DNA of 64,000 nt from Loxodes magnus. Taxonomy: Eukaryota > Ciliophora > Karyorelictea > Loxodida > Loxodidae. The stretch is taken from contig CAMPDV010000202.1 in assembly GCA_946699065.1 (NCBI GenBank), positions 62,001 through 126,000 of the forward strand. Direction: 5' to 3'. The notes beneath the pieces are model-generated. The model did no database searches. It was not told the DNA's origin and worked only from the letters and a program-made list of their open reading frames with translations. The translations under genes were made by a program, and so were the position numbers. Shown here one piece after another: positions 1,150-63,748 of this stretch (its first letter is position 1; each line of letters begins with the position of its first letter).

Positions 1150-4100
1150 TTCTTCTTGTTCTTTCTTTATCATATATTTTTATTTATTGTCTTAATGAAA
1201 TTTGTCTTTTTTTCTTTCTTGAAACTCTTCTAAAAGCTCATCTTGTAGTTCAAACATTTCAATACGCCTTTTTAGTAATTTAGAATGAAAATTTTCGATT
1301 AATTTGTCTATTTTAGGAATTTGATTCTTTGAAAAATGTTTGTTTATATAGTTTTAGTCATAAACAATTAGTTTCTTCTTGTCTTTTTCTTTAAAAGCTT
1401 TATGACTTTCAAGTTCCTCAATAATATCTGCACAGTATTAGCAATCAAAAATATGATCAGTTTCATCAAAGTCTTAACCACATAAGCAAATAATGCTATA
1501 TCTAACGTTAATGTGGCGATTACTAAATTCTTATTGAAAATTATAAGAAAAAGTCCTCAGTTTATAGATAGAAATAGTCTCTCTAATATAGTGTTTATTA
1601 TATTTGGTATAAGTAATTTCAGGAAATACACTTTAATTATTTTCTATTTAGTCTATAATTCTTTTTGCTGTTGGCATAAGTGTATTCCTAGAGAGACATT
1701 CCATTAAGAATTTATGTTTTATTTTTTATTCTGTGAGTTTATAAAAATCCATCTTACTCTAAACATGTAACATGTCAAAATTATACAAATCGATACATTT
1801 CTTTATATGTTTCTAGTATGGTAAATTAAATTTAGTGCATTTTTCTAATAAAAAAGCAGTGTCTGAGTTAGGATTTTCTTTGCTGTATTATATCAATTTT
1901 TAATAAAAGTGCATTAACTTTTGAGCTAAATTATGTGTAAAAAGAAGCCAGTTTAGATCAATAAAGCATGAATCATTGAATGTGAATTCTTAAGATCTAA
2001 ACGCCTATCTTGAGATAAGTTTTTACGATTTTGTTTTCTTGATTTTTTATTCCTTTATCTCCAGAAATAGTAGCTCACGGAGTAATATCTTTTCCATATT
2101 CAACTTTAGGCAAAATAAAAGTTCTACAAAGAGTTTTGAAGCTGAGAGGGAATACTAATCCATATTTAGAAAGTATTGCAGTAGCTTTTTAAATAGCTAC
2201 TCTGTATTTGGTAGCTACTGCTGTACAATGTAATTTGTAATTTTATTTTATTCCTAACTAATATCCTAAATAGGTAACTTCATCTTTTTAAGCAGTTGGA
2301 ATTCCATTGAGCTTTATATTAATAGAAGGTTAGCTTTCTTTTCATTTATTTTTTTTCAAGAATTCTATTACTTCACATTTGGCTACATTAATTGTAAGTT
2401 TTACTCAATCAAAAACTGTAGATGTAGCTTGTAATAATTTTTAGGCATTTTTCTAGGAAGAGGACAATTGGATTAAGTCGTTAGCAAAGGTATGTACTAC
2501 GAAAGTTTTAGATAATATTTGAAATCCTAATTTCCTCTGATTATCTTCTTAATATCTTATTACAATATCATAGTATAAAATTCTCAGTACAGGTACATGG
2601 CTACTTCCTTATAATACTCCATTGTTATATTTAATTGTTCTTGTAAGATATCCATCAATTATAAACTTAGCATCAACATTATCGTAAAAAGATTCTAGTG
2701 CCAATATTAGGTCCAAAGGTAGCCTAAGTCTTCTAAGATGATCAAAAAGTAATTTCCTAGATATGCTATCAAACATTTTTTCTACATCTATTAAAGTAGC
2801 AATTAATTACTTTTTATGAGATCATCTACGATGTAAGTCTATAATTTACTAAATAGTTCAAATTTGCTAATTAGTGGAGCGTTTACGAATAAATCCAAAT
2901 TAGGCTGGATGTAAAATGTTTCATTCATAAATATAATTATAAAGTCGTTATGTTAGTGCTTTATCATAAATTTTAAGTAGATAGTTCAATAAAGCGATAG
3001 GTCGTCAATTACATCAATTACTTTTGCTTCCTTTTTTGAAAATCGGAAGAATGCTTATTTTTTTCATTGCATTAGGTATTTTAAATGTTCTAAGCCTGTT
3101 ATTAATGAAACTTGTAATAATTTGATGTAAATCTTAACCTCCATATTTAATAAGTTCAGCTTTTAGACCATCATTACCTGTAGCTTTATTATTTGCAAGC
3201 TAAGATATAATGTTTTTAATTTCAAATCACGTAAAAAGAGGTATATTTTATAAATGACTTAATTTCTAATTTAAGATAAAAGATTTATTTCTAAATATTC
3301 CCTCTATTTTTCTATTTGAGAAGTAAAACTCTATCTTACTTATTTTCTAATGTTTATCAAAAACGTTAGTTTCCCAATTTTCAATAAATTGCTGTTGTTA
3401 GTTAAAGTTAAAATTAATCTAATTACGAATTTTAGGGTTTATTAGATTTTTAGCTTGTTTAAACATTATTTAAGCATTTTTGTTAAGATCTTTATATTTT
3501 TCCTTAACTTTTTACTTTTTTCATTTTCGAAATTTGTGAAGTTAACTCTTATAAGATTAAATTTTAAGCTAGTAAAGTTTGGTAACTTCTTAATTATGAA
3601 GTCCATACAAAACTAATGCGTTCTAATATGCAATACTATCCTTTTTTGTATGAACAAATAACGTAGCTAAGTAACTTGGCAATTGATAATAGTTTTTCCT
3701 TTGATTTTAAGATCCAAGCGCAATCTCAGCATTATAACTAATAAGATCGCAGATGAATTAGTACTAATTTTGAACATCGTTTTAATAAAGTTACTAGAAT
3801 TGATAAAATTATCCCAAAAATAGATTTTAATAATAGCTTCTCGTTTCCAAATCCTATAGTTAGAAATTTTAAAGAGTAATCGTTATTGTTAATCTTATTC
3901 ACTTCTTTTTAAATTATAATTTAATGTAATACTTAATGGAAAATGATCAGTATGCAAACCCAAATCTTGGATAACTTTATAGTCAACGAAATCATCAGAA
4001 TTTAAATGCTAAGTTGCCAAGAAGTAGTCATTACAATAGCATTAATTATTCACTCTATGAATAAATGTGTTGGACTCTTAATCATTTAAAATTATTAATT

Positions 4101-5140
4101 CATTTGCTTCTATAAAGTCTAGTAATCTTTAAGTATTATTATTGATTTATGATGAATTATTACCGTAGTTAGGAATTAAGGCATTAAAGTCGCCACAAAG
4201 GATAGTAGGGTTTTGGTCACTATTATTTATGATATTATTAAGGTATTCATATGCAATGTCCTTATAAATATTTGACTTTACGATTTTAGGCAAATAACAT
4301 GATGCTATTATTAAATTTCCAACTCTCACGCTTATAAAATGTCCAGGAAGATTTGAGAAATCTAATTCATTTTAACAAGAATCAAGTTACTTTTTTACTA
4401 ATAGACATACTCCACCTGCACGTTTATTTGCGCTTTAACAATAGGTACGATATTGTTCTATAGCAATTGGGCAATATGTTTATTACATTCATGTTTCGTT
4501 TATTGAAAAATATCAAATTCATTATCAAGGATGAATTATTATAATACCGTTTGTTTACTAGCTATTGAGCTTATATTTACATGTCCTATTTTTATTTTCT
4601 TAGATTCTTGCGCTCCATCAGGGAGCTCTCCCTAATATATGCAAATATATTTAGTCCCCTATGAATCTCTTTAAATATGTACCAGTTCTTTTTTATACTC
4701 AGGGTGCTGGTGGAAATATTATATCAAAATGTAAATTTCTCAAATAGAATAAGATTCTAGTAGTTTATTGTCTATTTTAATAACATTTTAGGTACTATCT
4801 ATAGTGCCTTGAGTTAATTCTTTATTAATTGTTATATACCTTCCTTGAACATTGCTTATTTAATATTAGTTTCTCCTTCATGAACCTTGTCTGATAAAGT
4901 TTTATAGTTGAGGAGATTGAAAATTTTTTTATCATATTATCTTTTAATTTCTCTTTCATTTTTTTCATTTAATAGTGCGTTTAGCTGGAGGATATTAAAT
5001 TCCATCTTCTTCATGTTTTCTTTTGAAAGGATTTTATTATTTGATAACAGTGCGATTCTAGTTTTCAATATAATTAATGTTTGTTTAGCTCATTTAATCT
5101 TTTTATCAAGGCTTGGTTTTTAGATCAAATAATAATAATA
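1150..5140 (-). CDS. LINE ORF2: endonuclease-reverse transcriptase, frame broken
   Basis: Makes the target nick and copies the element RNA. The endonuclease part includes LCGDFNAL (about 4195) and the later LHTDHFPLS motif. RT motifs follow in order: FKKGSKSNWCNWRPIALLN near 3000, QFGFIRKRST near 2880, motif A IDVEKMFDSI near 2770, motif B GVLQGSSHVP near 2610, motif C TFANDL at about 2477-2490. In NWRPI the Trp is UGA, matching the usual NWRPI/NYRPI of RTs. Motif C reads AND where active enzymes have ADD, so one catalytic Asp is replaced. A C-terminal CLCG...H...CQYC cluster lies near 1420-1490. The endonuclease and RT blocks are in different registers, so at least one frame change separates them. 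Confidence 0.8.
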
Positions 5141-14007: not shown

Positions 14008-15124
14008 TTAGACTAATAAATAGATAAATTGAATTTTAGAGTGCGTAGAACTCTCGATGTTGCGCAGTTTTTTAAATTAATTTTATTTAATGTAAACAAA
14101 AAATTTCTCATTGGAAGTTTCCTCTAGTGCTTCACTTCCTTAGAAATTATGTCTTCTAATGGGGTATGGTTGGAGTGATGCCTTAAGAGAACTATGGCAT
14201 CTTTCATCAACCGTTACTCAGTGCCTCCAGTTCTTTCCTGATTGGCCCCTGCCAAGATATTTGTTCAGTTCGTCACTCCTGAAGTACTTTCTGGTACTCG
14301 AATTAAAGTTAATCTCAATCATAGGATTGTTCCTTCCTATTTAAAATATATATAAAATAATTTTCTAGATAAGAGCACATTTGGCAACTAACCTTAGAAG
14401 TTTCTTATTAGAAAACAAATATAGAACTTGAATTAAGCATGCTTTATAATCTAAAATAAATAACTAAAATCTAAGAATTAATAAATAGCTAAATCTAATA
14501 TTATAAAGCTTATTTGTAATTTTTAATTTAGAATGAGAGAAAACTTTATATTAGGGATCTGATTAATTTAATTACCTGTAAGAGAAGTTATTATTATATA
14601 TTTTTTAAAACCGCCATAGTTGTTCGAAGGTGAACAACAAGGTCTTCTTCATCAGAGGTTGGGGAAGTTAAGTACCCATTATCGACTTTATGTCTTCCTC
14701 TGCTTTGGTTTGACCTCGAGACATAAGATTCTTAGACCTTCGACGTTGGCTTGACTTGGCTTCGTTTATTTTTAATACTGGAACGAAAAAGAATAATATT
14801 GCGAGCTTCATCAGAGGTGGGGAATTTAAGTACCCATAATTGACACATGTCGTCCTCTGCTTTGGTGATGCAATGAGACACAATCCTGCCATGTCCTTGG
14901 AACTCCAGCAAGTATTAAAAATTACGAGTATTCTAAAATTATAACAGTATTGAACATTTTTATCAGTACTGAATAATTATACCAGTATTGAACAAGATTT
15001 ATCAGTATCTGATAATTTTATCAGTAAGAAACATTCTTGTCAGTATGAAACATTTTTTTTAAAGAGCTGCGCACCAATGAGAGTGCTACGTGCTCTATAA
15101 TCAAATTTATTTATTTATTTATAA
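14008..15124. mobile_element. 1.1-kb element with about 60-bp terminal inverted repeats
   Basis: The left end (about 14008-14073) and the right end (about 15056-15124) are inverted copies of one another over about 60 bp, including GCGTAG...ACTCTC...TGCGCAG. This is the layout of a non-autonomous DNA transposon (MITE-like). The interior is much more GC-rich than its surroundings and encodes nothing I recognise. The right half holds two diverged copies of a 65-bp unit (about 14644 and 14805; both contain CTTCATCAGAGG and CCTCTGCTTTGG) and a cluster of short ATCAGTAtTGAACATTTT-like repeats at about 14940-15055. A second copy of the right half only lies at 50970-51500. Superfamily not determined; a TA duplication is possible at the ends. 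Confidence 0.7.
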
Positions 15125-15621
15125 GAATTGAGTATTAAAGCATATTAAGTTTGAAATAAAGATAAAGCATAAAGCAGCAGCTTTTATGAATAACAGATCA
15201 AGGATTAATAAATAACTATCTAATATGAATCTTTAAAACTGAAACCTTTCTAATAGATTCTAAGCTTGCTTAAAGTATTTCTTTATATCTAGACAAGATA
15301 TTTAAATTTAAACTTAATCTAATATTTAGAAGTTTAAGTTAGCAAAAATAAAATTTAATTAAATGAGCAATCTTGCTAATAAAATAAGTTGATTAAAATT
15401 AGTTAAAACTTTAATAATGAAGCAATTATTAAATATAGAATTTATTTTAAATAATTTATAAAAGTATCAGGATTCAAACCAGGATTCTTCACAGTACCAA
15501 AAAAAGTAGGAGTTAAAGACATTCTAGAAATTCAAGGATCAGGAAAAGAGTACCAAAAAGATGACAATCATAATGTATCTCCCATCTCTAGAGAGAAACC
15601 TAGGAAATAGATTAAAATATA

Positions 15622-16320
15622 ATGCGCTATGAAGTCTCGAATTTCACCACTTAGTAATAAATAAGCTAAGATTAGCTGATTAAAGTGGTGATGGACCTCC
15701 AGGAAGAGGTCAAAAAATTGAAGAAAGACAATAAGAAGTTAATGGAAAAACTTTAAATTGCAGAGGAATTATAATCGAAATTCATGACCTAAGAAAGAAG
15801 CCTTAACGCCTTTTGAAATATTTCACAGGAATAGAACAATTAATCTCAAAACTAGCAATAAGAGCAGAAAGAGCTAATCAGCGAGTTAGAAAAAATAGAA
15901 GAAAACCGGTATAAATTGCAGCGTTAAATGGAACGGAAAGATTAAAAGAATGATCCAAAAATAATTGAAGGTGAAAATTACTGAGATTTCAACCTAAACG
16001 ACAAGTAAGAAGATGCTATTATTGTAACTCTTAATGGTATGTGTGGAAAAGGTGCTATGAATTTCTAAATTTCAAGTAAGAATAATGAAAATAATAGAAG
16101 TAGTTGGAAAACAAAAAGAAGATACAATGACAACAAAAATTATTAAGAGAAAGTAGACTATTGTAACAAATTTGGGAAAATTTACAAGAAAAAAGCACCT
16201 ACCAACTAGTTGAAAGAAGAATTAAAGGAAAACATACATGGCAAGAAGAAGAGTTGTAGAACATTTTCAGACTTTTGAACTTAGTCTCTAGAGCAATCTA
16301 GAGGTTGGCGGTAAAGAGGT
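15622..16320 (+). CDS. LINE ORF1 relic (coiled coil, damaged CCHC)
   Basis: Starts at ATG 15622 (MRYEVSNFTTQQQ...) and reads as a coiled-coil protein with QERSLNAFWNISQEQNNQS, where Trp is UGA, and NDPKIIEGEN. Its homologue at 60.9 kb reads QERDLKVFWNISQDQRNQS. The knuckle region (16014 on) lies in another register and reads CYYCNSQWYVWKRC, so the His ligand is lost compared with CYYCNSHAHLWKRC of the homologue. One frame change lies between IIEG and the knuckle here; in the homologue the change lies earlier, so the two copies decayed independently. Confidence 0.65.
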
Positions 16321-28437: not shown

Positions 28438-29120
28438 ATGTTCATGAATTACCCTCTGAAAACTGCTTTCGCTTTTGGAACTTCAAGTTAAATCTAAAAT
28501 AGTTAATAGATTACTACTTCTTTGACTAAAATCCACACTTCTGATGATCAGAAGCATAATACTTAGGAAGATATTTAAGTAAGGGATATTAAAATATAGG
28601 GTTAGTAGTAATAGAGAGATTAAGTAAAGCTATATATCTAAACAGCTGACTAATAACGTTATATGATAACTATCCATTAAAAATAAAAGATCCTATAACT
28701 ACAAGAAATAGTAGAGAAGAGAATAAATATTCCTAAGCAGTATTAATAGTTACTGTTTAATGGAAAAGTATTATTATGATTCAAGGAAATTTAAGATTAT
28801 TAGATTAGCAATTATGATGTTGTTTATATAAGTGGAAAGCTTAAAGGGGGAGAAATGATATTGCAAGTAAAAAGGTTGTCTGCATAGACTTATTATATAG
28901 GAGCAGAACATTGGGAAACTATAGCTACTTTGAAGGCTATTTTATCGGATAAATCTTAAATTGATGAATCAAATATTAGACTAATTTATTCAGGGAGATT
29001 TTTAGAAGACTACAAAACATGTAATGACTATGGAATAGTAAACGGGTCAGTTCTTCATATGGTAGTTAGAGTATAAACTTAAATAACTCTATAAATTAGA
29101 TTTCACAATAAATTATTTGA
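28438..29120 (+). CDS. Tandem ubiquitin-like protein with an internal Gly-Gly
   Basis: Begins at ATG 28438 (MFMNYPLKTAFAFG...). A Gln/Thr-rich leader of about 62 residues is followed by two ubiquitin folds. Domain 1 (about 63-137) has YQQLLFNGKVL, like QQRLIFAGKQL of ubiquitin, and ends LKGG, the position of ubiquitin's LRGG. Domain 2 (about 138-211) has IRLIYSGRFLEDYKTCNDYGI and ends VLHMVVR, like TLHLVLR. The layout copies a polyubiquitin precursor, but the units are diverged from ubiquitin and from each other. Either a UAA right after VVRV (29074) ends it, or a 29-nt GT...AG intron (29071-29099) leads to UGA at 29118. Processing at the internal GG would release domain 1 with a leader; this is inference. 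It converges on a tRNA gene 130 bp away. Confidence 0.75.
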
Positions 29121-29251
29121 TAGCACTTATATAGATAAAGCATAATAAATAGATTTTAAAGATACTTTACTTTTTTAATATGCTATACTAAAGAACCTTA
29201 TGCTAAGAAAAGCAAATAAGCAAATAATTTAATCTTGCACTAATAAAAAAA

Positions 29252-29323
29252 TGGTCTTACCGAGAATCGAACTCGGATCGTTGGATTCAAAGTCCAACGT
29301 GCTAACCATTACACCATAAGATC
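29252..29323 (-). tRNA. tRNA-Gln (anticodon UUG)
   Basis: A full cloverleaf reads on the minus strand. The anticodon stem TTGGA/TCCAA encloses loop CTTTGAA with anticodon TTG. The T arm has TTCGATTC, and the D arm has GTGTAATGGTTAGCAC. The acceptor stem GATCTTA/TAAGACC has one A-C mismatch at the second pair. A run of T follows the 3' end (pol III terminator). It reads CAA. The UAA/UAG-reading Gln tRNAs this code needs are not in the window. Confidence 0.9.
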
Positions 29324-33300: not shown

Positions 33301-35451
33301 ATGCAAACTATAAAAGAATGCTTGTCTGCTTTAATATTCACTGATTTGAACTGAGTCATGAAGGAATTCGATATTTCCAAACAAGATGTAGAAAGTATGA
33401 TGCGTGATTATAAATAACTACATAGCTTAGATTTTGTTACTCAGACTAAATAGAACATTTTGAAAATGAAAGACTCTTTTTCTAGATTCCAAATCTCCCA
33501 GGAAACCGGCTTGCCTTTGAGTACTATCAACTTCATTATTGATTCTAATAAAAATTTGGGGAAGGAAAGTGGGATGCAGAATGAGCTTATGTAATCTGAA
33601 TCTTAAGAATGCTTAGTTATGAAGATTAATAAGTAATCTCCCAGGAATTAAAGCTAAGAGAGTAATGCGAAGAGTTAAGAAAAACATAAGAGCGACAAAA
33701 TTGAGAAAGTTGAGAAAAGCGAAAAAAATGAGAAAACAGAGAAAAATGAAAAAAATGAAAAAAATGAAAAAAGTGAAAAAAATGAAAAAAACGAGAAAAA
33801 TGAGAAAAGCTAAAATGATACTAAAACAAATGAAGCTGCAAATGAGAGGAGAATCACTAGAAATATGGATAAACAAGAAAAGAAAAAATAAATTACACAA
33901 AGAAGCAAAAAAATAAAATTTCCATGAACTGAAGATCAAATAGTTCGGTTGACGGAAAGTGGAGCAGTGATAGGAAAGTCTAATAATAAGCTGCAATATG
34001 TATGCCTTCATTGTGAAAAGATATTTAAAGATGGAATAAACCTAGCGAGGCATTTCAGTGATAAGCATCCAAATTTAAAGAAGTTAATACTTTTCTGTCC
34101 TCTTTGCAAAGAGATGACTTTTAAGAATAGAAGTGAATATTTCTACCACTGAAGAAGTCATGAAGATAAGACTAAAATTAAATACACTTTAAAGTCTATC
34201 TAAGACTTCTAAAAACCTTAACCAAAATATCAAGATTCTAAATTTACTTCTAACTCTAAGAGAGTTAGGTCTTCTTAAAATGACTATAAGGAAATAAAAA
34301 ACGATAAGAATGATTAAAAAAATTAAAGGTAAAGAGTAAAGGTTCGACAAAAAAATAAGAAATAGTAAGACTCAAACGAAGAATCAGAAATAGAGATCTA
34401 AACTTAAAAGTTTGAATGCGAGAATTGTGAATAGTAATTCACAAACGAGGAACAGCTGGAGTGACATGAAAAGAGAGTACATAGTAAAAAGTCTCCTTTA
34501 TATTATTTTATCACTGATAAAACTTAAGAGGAGCTTGAAAGATTGAACTTAACAATTGCATAGGGAAAAGTTATATACAATAAAAGAGGAGTCATGTCAT
34601 TTCAATGTAAAGAATGCAAAAAGTATTTCAATTAATACTCAAAAATATCTCATCATTTTAAAAAAATTCATCCTAAGAAATAACTCAATGTAATAAGATG
34701 TTCAGTTTGCAATACTTTATTTAAGAAGAGACAGCATCTTTTACTGCATTTAGTTAAACATGAAAAAAACTAATAAAAGGATTAAAATTCTAAGACTTCT
34801 GAAAATTCTGAAGATGAGGTTGAAAGCAAGTAAAGTGAAAGCAAAAAATAGAATAGTAAAAAACAGTAAGATCAGGTAAAAAGCCAAGTTAAGAATAAAA
34901 AAAGACCAAGAGAGAGTCTTAAATCATCAGAAGAAAGCTAGTCCACAAATGCTAAGGAAAAGAACAGCAAAACACTAGAATTGAAAGTTTAAAATAAAAA
35001 ATAAAAAGATTAAAGGGAAGAAGAATAAAAGAATAAGAATAGTATCAAATAGTCAGAAACTAATAAGATATAAGAAGAAGATTCTTTGATTGTACTAAGT
35101 AATTAATTTATTATAGATAGTGAAAACAAGGAAAAAGAAATTGAAATAGAAATGGGACCTGAAGTCGAAATAGAAGTCGAAAGTACATCATAAAAAGGTG
35201 ATGAAGTAAGTAATGAATAAGATGTAAGCTAAAAGCAAGTTTTAGTTGAGTAAGCCAGTGATTCTTTATTAGTTGCAGAATAAAAAAATGAAAATTAAAA
35301 CGAACAAAGTCAAAATAATGACAAAATGACTTCATAAGAAAATCAGAATGTTTAGACATAAGAGCAGAAAGAAAATGAAATTTAAAATAATGAGTCATAA
35401 GGAAAATAAGTAGCAAGAATAAATCAACGTATAATCCATTTATCTAACTGA
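33301..35451 (+). CDS. C2H2 zinc-finger protein with EK-rich repeat
   Basis: One register of 716 residues from ATG 33301 (MQTIKECLSALIF...) to UGA 35449-35451. The N-terminal 100 residues are helical. A low-complexity run of (N/S/T)-E-K repeats covers about residues 136-170. Then comes KFPWTEDQIVRL, with Trp = UGA, like the start of a Myb/SANT helix. At least four C2H2-type fingers follow: YVCLHCEKIFKDGINLARH, FCPLCKEMTFKNRSEYFYH, FECENCEQQFTNEEQLEWH and FQCKECKKYFNQYSKISHH, then RCSVCNTLFKKRQHLLLH. The C-terminal 200 residues are very acidic and Gln-rich. This fits a nuclear DNA-binding protein; target unknown. In-frame UGA occurs at least four times inside and reads best as Trp each time. 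Confidence 0.8.
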
Positions 35452-37008: not shown

Positions 37009-38376
37009 TTATGACTCAATTGCTGATTCTTCCTTTTCAATGATACTAAAATCATGTTGCTATAATTCTTAAAAATCTTTTTTCCCTTCAAAATTCCGTT
37101 CTCTAGAAAAAAGACTCACTTTGCCTAGGGATGTATAAACTTTTCTTACTGTTACTTGTTGGTTTGTACCTCCAAAGCTTATAAAGGGAATTAAATTGCC
37201 TGATGCTCCTTAAATTGTGACCGATTTTCCTTCTCCGTTTATAAATTATACTTTTGAATCATTAAAGTTAACAATTAGTCTTATGGTATTTCCACTATTG
37301 AACTTAAGAATATCCGCATAGTTATTTGAGCATTCTTCTTATGGATCATATAAATATCCGAATCTGTTGATTGCCCATACTCTTTCAGGTGGTTTTTCAT
37401 AACCATTAAAGCAAGTTGCATAATTTATATTTTCGTTATCCTCTAGTACTCCGACATACATATCGCCGAATTCTTCTTCTCCTACTTAATCTATTGAAAA
37501 GTCTATTTCTATAATTCCTTCTTTGAAACTCTAATTTCCTAGAACGGAAGACCAAGCGTAATGTTATCCTTATTTCTTTGCAGTAATCTCGGTCACTACT
37601 TCAATATGTTTGCATTTCCTTTCTTAACTTCATTAGAAGATTACTTCTTACTTAGGCGCGTCAGGAACTTTCCCTATTTAATATTTATTGTTAATTTCCT
37701 ACAAAATATCAGCGCTAGTTATATCTGGTACTTTGAATTTGATGATACTAGGGATATCAATCTATTATTTGTGAAATTCTGGTTCGATTGGTTCAAATTG
37801 TAGTAGTGAATCATAAAAATATTCCATTTTTTATGTTTATCTATTAATTTCATCATTCAGAGTCTTCTCTATTCTATTATCAAACATTTTATGCAGTTTC
37901 TCACAGAAATTCATGTTCTTATTTTCAATTAAGCTGTCGATGTTAACATTGATAGTTTCTTTTAACTAATTTTAGTGATTTTCCAAATTACTTTGCAAAT
38001 CTTTAATTTACTTTTACAGATTCTAGAAGAATGCCTAATCGTAAGATAAAGTAAGTTGCTACTACAGCTATGTTAATTGCTAGATCAAGCCTCTTATAGT
38101 TTCTTGCATCACATTGATCTTTTTTTCCTTTTGCTTAAATGAAATTTACTTTATATCTTCTATAAATTTTTAGTATTTATCAGCTTTCTATAAAAGATTA
38201 GTCAGAATCACTTTTTTCTCTTAAAGCTTTTTCTATTAATCTTCCCACTTCTTCTAAGGATCAACCATTGTATGATTCATATGCTACTAATCAAGATAGC
38301 ATTTAGGACAGATTTCTTTTTGGCAATGATCATCTCAAAATGAAAGAGCAACTTAATGAGCTTTGCAGAGTGACAT
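37009..38376 (-). CDS. B-box, coiled-coil, SPRY protein (TRIM-like without RING)
   Basis: A 455-residue reading in one register from ATG 38374-38376 to a UAA at 37009-37011. Residues 1-35 hold a B-box zinc finger: CKAH...CQKEICPKC...HMNH, with two UGA codons read as Trp. Residues about 45-215 form a coiled coil rich in Gln and Lys. Residues about 255-420 match a SPRY/B30.2 domain: GIIEIDFSI, DMYVGVLED, RVWAINRFGYLYDP, GNTIRLIVNF and IPFISFGG. TRIM-type proteins use this set for scaffolding or ubiquitin ligation, but no RING is present, so ligase activity is doubtful. No in-frame UGA follows for more than 100 codons, so the stop is probably UAA. Confidence 0.8.
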
Positions 38377-49158: not shown

Positions 49159-50969
49159 TTATAAACTCAAAATTAATTTTGGTATAAATAGCAGTTAAAT
49201 TTTCTGCTAAGATGATATGAAAATCTATCGGAATATCTAAATTCTAATAAATACAATCTTCTTAGTTTAAAGAGCTAAGTTTAATACTAAGAGAGTAAAG
49301 TAATAGCTAATTAGATATTAAAGCAATTTATTTAATATTTATTAGTTTAGTGCATTTATTAAATTAAGAGCTGTAAACTATATTTGAATCTATGAACATC
49401 ATTTATAAGAATATTTTATGAGGTATAGTGACTCACAATTATGAGGATTGAAGATATGGAAGTTGCTTATTAAAAAAATTTTGGAAGAAGTAAAACGGAT
49501 TTGGGATTTAGGTAAATTATTGGTTTAATAAGAGAAGGAAAGGTATTAAGTATTATGCTAGTTTTAGTGATGTAATTTAAGAACCATTTAGTAAAAAAAA
49601 AGCTTGTTAGATTAACAAAATTTAAGCTAATAGAATGCTTAAATCAAATATCTAATAAATCTAATAAATATATTTTCACTGATTAATGAACTAAATAATA
49701 TTTATTGTTTATATAAGTAAACGATCGAAATTAAAGGATTAAGGATGGAAATTAATATTTTAAATTATACTAGAAAAATGCTATATCTTAAATAAATGAA
49801 GCAAGGACTCAGATTCAAAATATATTTATAATTAGATAAAGCTATTTATTTACAAAAGAGTTAGATATGAAAAATCTTCAAATTTAAGTATTAGATGTTT
49901 CATTACTTCAATAGAATGATTTTTTAAGTAGAATTTTAAATAAAAAGGTGATAGAGACAAACAGAAAAAAGGGAAAAAAATTTCCTGCTAGGTGTCTAGT
50001 TTAGAAGATATTTTGAATTATGTTAGGGTCAAAAGATTTTAGTTAGCTTATGTAGAAAATTTTAATACTTTCATTTAATTTATTAAAAGTAGCCTATGAT
50101 TTTTAGTTGGAAGGATAAAAGTTTGAAACTTTAATTTTTCAAAATTAATTAGAACTTTGCAAACATTTTTCTAACTACATACTATTTTTCGAATAGCTCT
50201 TCGAAAATATTCTTTGTGCAATGCTAGCTGAAAATAGAAATTTAGCTAACTAGCTATCTATCTGCTAATAATATTTCAATTTAAAATAGAATTCAATATC
50301 ATTATAATTTCACAGCTAAAATCGAGTTTATTCATATATTTTCTTTGAACGATGTTGAAATAAATTCTCCTTTAAAATAATTAAAGCCAAGAGATATATT
50401 CTTTTATGCAGTTAAATTAAACTTGCTAAAATTATCTCAAAAAGTAAATTGATTTAAGTTAATTGTCAAAGTTCTTTCTAATAAGTTCATGACTTTTTAT
50501 CCTATTTATAAGATGCTATGAGAAGCACTTTAAAGTTATTATCATGTAAGTTTTTTCATTCTTTAATAGAAAACTCAGAAATTAAAATACAGAGAGAGAT
50601 ATAATTCATGAAGGAAAGATTTCGGTAATGTTATTAGCATAAATAAATCTTAGAAAGCAAATATCGAAATTGACATTTTTAAATACCCTGATGCTTAATC
50701 TTAAACATACCATTATTATAATTTATTTCAAATTTCTTAATGCTAAACAAGTTTCCAAATAGTAAAGCCATTTAAATTTAAGTTAGAACTCTTACTAATA
50801 AACAAAATTGTTTTGATAAAGAATAAAAAAGTGTTTTTAAAACTTGCCTTTTTATCCCCTCAATTTAAGTATCATATTCATTCAATAGCTTCTAGTGTTA
50901 ACTCATTAGAATTATTTTCTCTTTTATCACTAGCTTATGCAATAATCTAAAAATAAGACACTTTATCTA
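49159..50969. other. AT-rich spacer
   Basis: A short plus-strand reading (about 49440-49600, MRIEDMEVAYQK...) is possible but unsupported. Otherwise nothing recognised. Confidence 0.35.
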
Positions 50970-51500
50970 TATTATATTTTTTAAAACCGCCATAGTTGTT
51001 CGAAGGTGAACAACAAGGTCATCTTCATCAGAGGTTGGGGAAGTTAAGTACCCATAATCGACTTTATGTCTTCCTCTGCTTTGGTTTGACCTCGAGACAT
51101 AAGATTCTTAGACCTTCGACACTTGGCTTGGCTTCGTTTATTTTTAATTCTGGAACTAAAAAGAAATAATATTGCGAGCTTCATCAGAGGTGGGGAATTT
51201 AAGTACCCATAATTGACACATGTCGTCCTCTGCTTTGGTGATGCAATGAGACACAATCCTGCCATGTCCTTGGACCTCCAGCAAGTATTAAAGATTACGA
51301 GTATTCTTAAATTATATCAGTATTGAACATTTTTATCAGTACTGAATAAATACCAGTATCGAACAAGGTTATCAGTATCTGATAATTTTATCAGTAACAA
51401 ACATTCTTGTCAGTATGAAACATTTTTTTTTAAAGAGCTGCGCACCAATGAGAGTGCTACGCGCTCTATAATGAAATTTATTTATTTATTATTTTAACTT
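50970..51500. mobile_element. Second copy, right half of the 14-kb TIR element
   Basis: Nearly identical to 14595-15124, including the two 65-bp units, the ATCAGTA repeats and the right terminal repeat (GCTGCGCACCAATGAGAG). It lacks the left 590 bp and the left terminal repeat. Same orientation as the first copy. The high identity suggests recent movement. Either a truncated copy or the basic unit of the family. Confidence 0.75.
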
Positions 51501-60309: not shown

Positions 60310-61085
60310 CTCAGTTTTTAGATTGCTCTAGAGGCTGAATATAAAAGTTTAAATGTCTCTACTATTCTTTTCCTTGCTATGCATACTGTCACTGAGATGT
60401 CATTTCGGCAAGATAATGATTGGTATCTTTCATCTTGTATATTTTCCAAATTTGTTGCATTATCATCTTTCTCTTTTTATTTTTAGTTGTTGCTTTATCT
60501 ATTTCTAGTAATTTAAGTATCCCTTTTTAATTTTTTGAAATTTATAGCATCTTTTCCATAGATGTGCATGAGAGTTACAATAATAGCATCTTTTTGCTTC
60601 TTGTTTATATCTAAATCTTGAGTTCCTTCCTCCTTCGATTATCATTGGGTCATTTCCTTATTCTTGTAAGTCTATTTAACACTTCAATTTTTAGTAGTTT
60701 TCTTCTATTTTTAGTGTTATGATTAATTTCTCTGGTCTTGTGAAATATTTCAAAATACTTTAAGGTCTCTTTCTTAGGCCATGAGTCTCGACTCTATTTT
60801 CTCGGCAATTTCAAGTTTATCCATCAGTCCCTTATTATCTTTAAACATCTTTCTTACCTCTTCCTGAAAGTCTAGCATCATTTTTATCAGTTAATCATAG
60901 CTTATTAACTGCTCTTTGGTGAAATTCGTAATTTCCAAGCGCATGATACTTTTAACCTTTTCCCTAGGCTTTTCTTCAGAAGTGGGAGATCAAAATGATG
61001 GATAACTTTTTGGTTCCCTTTTCCTGATCCTAGTTTCTCTAGGATGTCATTAACTCTAATCCTTTTGGAACCGCGAAAAATCCAG
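60310..61085 (-). mobile_element. LINE ORF1 relic, sister of the 15.6-kb copy
   Basis: From ATG 60942-60944 the minus strand reads MRLEITNFTKEQLISYDQL..., then QERDLKVFWNISQDQRNQS, all close to the 15622-16320 copy, with Trp again UGA. After one register change it reads NDPMIIEGGRN and an intact zinc knuckle CYYCNSHAHLWKRC (about 60549-60590). DNA similarity to the other copy runs from about 15480 to 16340 there, including untranslated flanks. No endonuclease or RT follows, so only the ORF1 end is present. Confidence 0.7.
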
Positions 61086-63085: not shown

Positions 63086-63748
63086 TCATAATGTGTGTAA
63101 AACTTCTGGTGATGAAGAATTTTTCTAACTTGAATGTGCTACGTAAGTTATTGGCTAGTTTTATACTTAGCAAAGCTTTTTAAATTCTTTTCCAATTTCC
63201 CTTACTAAAGCCTCTTCTTTTGAGTTACTGTTCCATAAACAAACTTTGATTCCTTGCTTCCTCACTCCAAGAGTCACTCCGCAAATATCATTGTAAACTT
63301 TTTCACTATCGAAATTGCATCCAATCATGCCTAGCAAAAGATTCTACCAAGCCTAGTCAATAGTTTTAGTTACTTCTGGTTTTACAGGATAGTTCTGTGC
63401 TATATACAAAGTTCAAGAACCTCCGTTGACATTATTCACATCTTCTCACTTAGGCTCTATATGGCTTTTAAAGAACCAATAGTCTTACTTAATAGTTAAT
63501 TTGCTAGGCTTCCTAACATTGTTATATACTCCTCAGAAGTCCTCCACTGTTGCAAGTGTAGCTATCTTTTTAAGTCTTTGCTCCCATTAATGTAAATCGA
63601 TGGCAGAAGACTAGGACTATTTTTGTTGTTTGGTCACAGTACACTATAGAGTCCAGGTGTTTTATAAAGGATGCAATCCTTGCCCTATTTTATCCTTTAA
63701 TTCAGATTCTTCTAATCTTTTTTCAGCCATTAAAGTAATGATACTCAT
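63086..63748 (-). CDS. eIF4E: Translation initiation factor eIF4E
   Basis: Binds the mRNA 5' cap and recruits eIF4G in the cytoplasm. One register of 220 residues, the usual length, from ATG 63746-63748 to UGA 63086-63088 (a second ATG at 63728-63730 is possible). Core motifs: HPLQNTWTLQ, HQWEQRL (first cap-stacking Trp, UGG), TVEDFWGVYNN (Trp = UGA), DYWFFKSHIEPKWED (second cap-stacking Trp = UGA, followed by the cap-binding Glu), GGSW (UGA), and GVTLGVRKQGIKVCLWN. The C-terminal ITYVAHSSQKNSSS matches the IGYQSHADTATKSGS end of the human protein, so the in-frame UAA at 63167 is sense and UGA is the stop. This is the best single witness for the code. Confidence 0.92.

Follow-up and report, generated by a model that had tools for sequence, protein, structure and literature searches.

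An eIF4E gene with in-frame UGA on conserved tryptophan columns and, most likely, UGA as its stop codon

The minus strand of the window (the whole 64-kb stretch of DNA analyzed here) carries what is very probably an ordinary gene for eIF4E, from a probable ciliate that uses a karyorelict-type, context-dependent genetic code. Judged from the sequence, UAA and UAG (UAR) would encode glutamine in this gene, while UGA would encode tryptophan inside it and act as the stop at its end. Since a code already described in ciliates matches, we regard this as the correct reading of a known code and not as a new phenomenon: it is real, the first-pass annotation read it rightly, and it is already known in kind, UGA in essential translation genes having been published before. 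The accessible text of PMC4967479 reports that essential genes contain UGA in frame, TrpRS in Condylostoma and eRF1 in Parduczia being examples, and gives mass-spectrometry evidence for Trp in Condylostoma. The titles and abstract openings of the literature searched describe no eIF4E gene with an altered code, which is not to claim that none is in print. The gene and the codons discussed below are as follows.

63086..63748, minus strand: eIF4E coding sequence, 220 codons plus the last UGA, identified by Pfam, PDB matches and alignment
63644..63646, minus strand: UAG codon 35, where human eIF4E has Trp46
63533..63535, minus strand: in-frame UGA codon 72, in VEDFW, on the Trp column of human W73
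63446..63448, minus strand: in-frame UGA codon 101, in PKWED, on the Trp column of human W102
63413..63415, minus strand: in-frame UGA codon 112, in GGSW, on the Trp column of human W113
63155..63169, minus strand: UAA194, UAA196 and UAG198, just before invariant I200 and H205
63125..63127, minus strand: UAG208, probably sense, followed by 12 weakly conserved codons before UGA221
63086..63088, minus strand: UGA codon 221, most likely the stop

With UAR read as Gln and UGA as Trp, the frame is unbroken over 220 codons on the minus strand, from 63748 to 63086. The first-pass annotation had given this interval and left the strand unstated; it is the minus strand that carries the gene, and plus-strand frame 1 over the same positions contains nothing eIF4E-like by eye. 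The start may alternatively be the second ATG, at 63730. Aligned to the eIF4E family profile, as the first-pass annotation had foreseen, this translation matches Pfam IF4E (PF01652) with an E value of 4.8e-45 and 153.6 bits against a curated cut-off of 28.7, which places it in the family, and it covers positions 1 to 153 of the 158 in the profile. Chains of eIF4E in the PDB were also matched, with E values down to 3.5e-31. In a four-sequence alignment (human, wheat, melon, and this gene), identity of the translation is 32% with the human protein, 41% with that of wheat, and 38% with that of melon; the human residue numbers used here were counted on the confirmed human eIF4E sequence. Scans that detect close relatives only returned 10 pattern matches in viral contigs and 86 in contigs of prokaryote genomes, none of which was a relative, and no near-identical DNA was found in the phage collection.

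All three internal UGA codons fall on alignment columns where the human, wheat, and melon proteins all have Trp, as the first-pass annotation had observed for the motifs VEDFW, PKWED, and GGSW. With seven such columns among 187 aligned residues, the probability that three of three UGAs would land on them by chance is ~3e-5, a figure that applies to eIF4E only. The number of TGA triplets alone is unremarkable, since the other five frames hold between 0 and 6 of them; what counts is their position. Conservation thus suggests Trp at codons 72, 101, and 112, in which case the gene would use UGG five times and UGA three times for Trp, and seven of the eight Trp positions of human eIF4E would be kept. 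We take human W56 and W102 to be the Trp residues that stack on the cap and W73 to be the dorsal-face Trp that binds eIF4G. The column of W56 corresponds to codon 55, which is UGG, so that the cap-stacking columns (codon 55, UGG, and codon 101, UGA) and the dorsal-face column (codon 72, UGA) are all kept as Trp only if UGA encodes it. Of the cap-stacking pair, the statement that UGA encodes the cap-binding Trp therefore holds for codon 101 and fails for codon 55. The reading that a translation factor relies on a UGA with dual meaning is supported, and the gene is probably essential.

One usual Trp position differs from that of the aligned relatives. The column of human W46, which is Trp in all three aligned relatives, is occupied by UAG codon 35, and the stretch between the columns of W43 and W56 (codons 32 to 55) is longer here than in these relatives. 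Either this is an eIF4E with Gln at that position, or the codon reflects a mutation or a sequence error; no intron whose removal would bring Trp back at codon 35 was found by eye. This Trp was not counted as family defining.

Twelve UAR codons precede the last UGA. Three of these, UAA194, UAA196, and UAG198, must be sense, since they lie ahead of I200 and H205, two invariant residues in the last conserved stretch; sense UAR codons therefore extend to codon 198 (23 codons from the end) and probably to codon 208. The claim that a UAA in the conserved C-terminal tail is sense stands for these three codons, while for UAG208, which follows H205, a sense reading is favored by composition, short of proof: GC is 27.8% in the 12 codons after it versus 13.9% in the 36 nt after UGA221. 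The identity of the amino acid is less constrained than the sense reading itself, which is well supported. UAA29 lies on the column of human Q40, a weak test of Gln, and the assignment of UAR to Gln is otherwise taken from published codes.

The length of the alignment and the composition of the DNA indicate that UGA221 is most likely the stop. This codon is at most two alignment columns from the human C terminus. The coding sequence has 34.2% GC, compared with 10.0% in the first 30 nt after UGA221, 16.7% in the first 60, and 20.0% in the first 100. Counted back from the end of the gene, the last internal UGA is 109 codons away, the last UAA 25, and the last UAG 13. The central proposal of the first-pass annotation, that UGA carries two meanings within one gene, is upheld in this form: three times on Trp columns and once, most likely at UGA221, as the stop.

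These features agree with the karyorelict code (NCBI table 27), in which UAR is sense and UGA is both a Trp codon and the only stop; its primary paper is in Peer Community J. 2022, as cited in PMC11441545. The accessible parts of PMC11441545 assign table 27 to Loxodes magnus, where UGA encodes Trp if it is far enough from the poly(A) tail, where UGA and UAA but not UAG are depleted in the ~20 codons before the stop, and where coding sequences have 33.5% GC and 3′ untranslated regions 18.6% GC with a median length of 41 bp. Compared with the code as described there for L. magnus and in the accessible parts of PMC4967479 for Parduczia sp., the eIF4E gene shares sense UAR codons, UGA as Trp internally, most likely a UGA stop, the lack of UGA and UAA in its last 20 codons, and a coding GC of ~34% with an AT-rich 3′ flank; it shows no clear difference. 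A karyorelict source is suggested by this code together with the base composition. The nonstop code of Blastocrithidia, as far as it is set out in the available text of PMC12153298, also reads UGA as Trp and has one stop codon with dual meaning, but there UAR encodes Glu and the dual codon is UAA, whereas here the likely stop is UGA.

Two other genes of the window bear on the same question, a WD40 gene and the following zinc-finger gene.

33358-35451, plus strand: C2H2 zinc-finger gene (Pfam C2H2), its extent given for the ATG at 33358 as a putative start

Three UGAs but no UGG occur inside the C2H2 gene, whose stop is a UGA followed by a drop in GC. UGA codon 552 (P0009) lies inside a Pfam-matched finger and UGA codon 448 in what is, by eye, a finger-like motif. 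Its last internal UGA is 329 codons before the stop, in agreement with the depletion in L. magnus, while two UAAs fall inside the stretch where UAA is depleted in that species, at distances of 14 and 17 codons from the stop; this comparison covers two genes only. A UGA end is assigned, with no intron assumed, to two genes of the window: the C2H2 gene and, most likely, eIF4E. Across repeats of the WD40 gene, the Trp position of the motif D-x-K/N-W-x-I-S is UGG once (residue 232) and UGA twice (residues 188 and 274); within the stretch aligned to 2ymu, one of six UGAs (residue 264) is on a Trp and the other five are not, which counts against the favored reading. The C2H2 and WD40 genes, like eIF4E, require UGA to be read as sense. 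On the plus strand between 55400 and 57200, the coding stretches of a kinase and of the WD40 gene shift frame several times, and these frame changes may reflect a decayed gene, tiny introns, or sequence errors.

A code of the Condylostoma type (table 28) is the alternative to be taken most seriously, although we consider it unlikely. Under it, any of the three triplets may stop near the transcript end, and eIF4E might end at UAG208, after which only weakly conserved residues follow. As described in the accessible text of PMC4967479, the Condylostoma code resembles the situation here in that all three triplets are sense inside genes and position decides; there, UAA and UAG also terminate, and here the candidates for an end at UAR are UAG208 and the end of a ubiquitin-like gene. 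The three Trp UGAs of eIF4E are unchanged under table 28. Since UAG208 is only probably sense, eIF4E taken by itself would also be compatible with UAG as an additional stop, but the GC contrast between the sequences after UAG208 and UGA221 and the closeness of UGA221 to the human end argue against a stop at UAG208. The gene ends on which tables 27 and 28 can be compared elsewhere in the window involve the following features.

28440-29260 (28.5-29.1 kb), plus strand: ubiquitin-like gene, convergent with a tRNA-Gln gene
29252-29323, convergent to the ubiquitin-like gene: tRNA-Gln gene
37088-37119, minus strand: region of a candidate 17-nt intron, GTGAGTCTTTTTTCTAG, close to where a B-box-like gene ends

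The ubiquitin-like gene speaks for table 28 in that its similarity is lost at MVVRV and a UAA comes closely after the domain, with no in-frame UGA found between the ubiquitin domain and the tRNA-Gln gene. Either it ends at this UAA, as in the Condylostoma code, or a candidate 29-nt intron brings it to a UGA, though introns of that length would be uncommon in Loxodes, where the modal length is 17 bp and 93% are ≤25 nt (PMC11441545, in its accessible parts). The C2H2 gene points both ways, having two UAAs fewer than 20 codons before its stop and yet ending at UGA. The B-box-like gene, identified by a weak Pfam match (E = 0.0021) that is below the curated cut-off, would favor table 27: its candidate intron GTGAGTCTTTTTTCTAG, at ~37.1 kb, has the modal Loxodes length, in contrast to the 15 to 16 nt given for heterotrich introns in the same parts of PMC11441545, and once it is spliced out the fifth codon downstream would be a UGA, although the main fall in GC is nearer 36.98 kb. 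Whichever of tables 27 and 28 applies to UAG208, the ends of the ubiquitin-like and B-box-like genes, and the UAAs of the C2H2 gene, the reading of the three internal UGAs of eIF4E is unaffected.

How the karyorelict-type code that we favor would work in this gene can be drawn from the poly(A)/PABP model of stop recognition, as presented in the accessible text of PMC4967479. At the internal UGAs, Trp tRNA would outcompete eRF1, while near the poly(A) tail the poly(A)-binding protein would favor eRF1/eRF3, and translation would end at the last UGA. Most likely eIF4E is under no special control through UGA, which is simply one of two Trp codons in this genome: no sign of such regulation is seen in eIF4E, and further genes of the window also use UGA as sense. 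It is very unlikely, in our estimate, that eIF4E works as a sensor, coupling cap-dependent initiation to the balance between Trp and stop at UGA. If it did, eIF4E output would fall whenever termination at UGA gained on its decoding, since UGA as Trp is needed at cap-binding and eIF4G-binding residues. With the principle already published, the value of the gene lies in illustration and in its use as a handy test gene: in a short, probably essential gene, it displays the rules of an ambiguous code, with UGA at invariant Trp positions, UAR as sense near the end, and UGA as the likely stop in AT-rich surroundings.

That the gene is a decayed eIF4E copy under the standard code, its stop triplets being real stops, we find hardly credible. 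By the standard code, 15 in-frame stop triplets do precede the last one, and the WD40 region of the window, with its repeated shifts of frame, may be decayed; against this, the eIF4E frame runs for 220 codons without a frameshift, keeps most of the human Trp positions (seven of eight), places every one of its three internal UGAs on a Trp column, and contrasts with its flanks in GC. Least credible of all is the removal of the UGA triplets from the mRNA by tiny introns or their alteration by editing. The conserved residues on both sides of each UGA (VEDFW, EPKWED, and GGSW) leave no room for introns, even though karyorelict and heterotrich introns are tiny (accessible text of PMC11441545) and the stretch of codons 32 to 55, longer than in relatives, holds by eye a 21-nt in-frame GT..AG.

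The remainder of the window was surveyed against Pfam at an E value of 0.01 with 40 queries, which were extended versions of 39 of the 95 listed stretches, and an Rfam search of the 64 kb found no rRNA. No Pfam match at this threshold was obtained for 26 of the 40 queries. Apart from eIF4E, matches were to reverse transcriptase, endonuclease, pieces of protein kinase, ubiquitin, C2H2 finger, and WD40, with weak matches below the curated cut-off to B-box, NOP5NT, and others. The reverse transcriptase and endonuclease belong to one element.

2255-4311, minus strand: LINE-like element, with pieces matching RVT_1 (E = 1.2e-26) and endonuclease (E = 7.3e-11)

Its reverse transcriptase has many internal UGAs, and the UGA in the motif NWRP aligns to a Phe of the solved LINE-1 ORF2. 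Two repeats were also seen. Inverted copies of a ~600-nt repeat lie at 15510-16133 and 60469-61056 and are 70 to 81% complementary in matched pieces; the composition of this repeat looks coding, but none of its queried stretches matched Pfam above the curated cut-off. Direct copies of a ~500-nt repeat, perhaps a mobile element, lie at 14592-15119 and 50968-51490 and are 96 to 97% alike in matched pieces.
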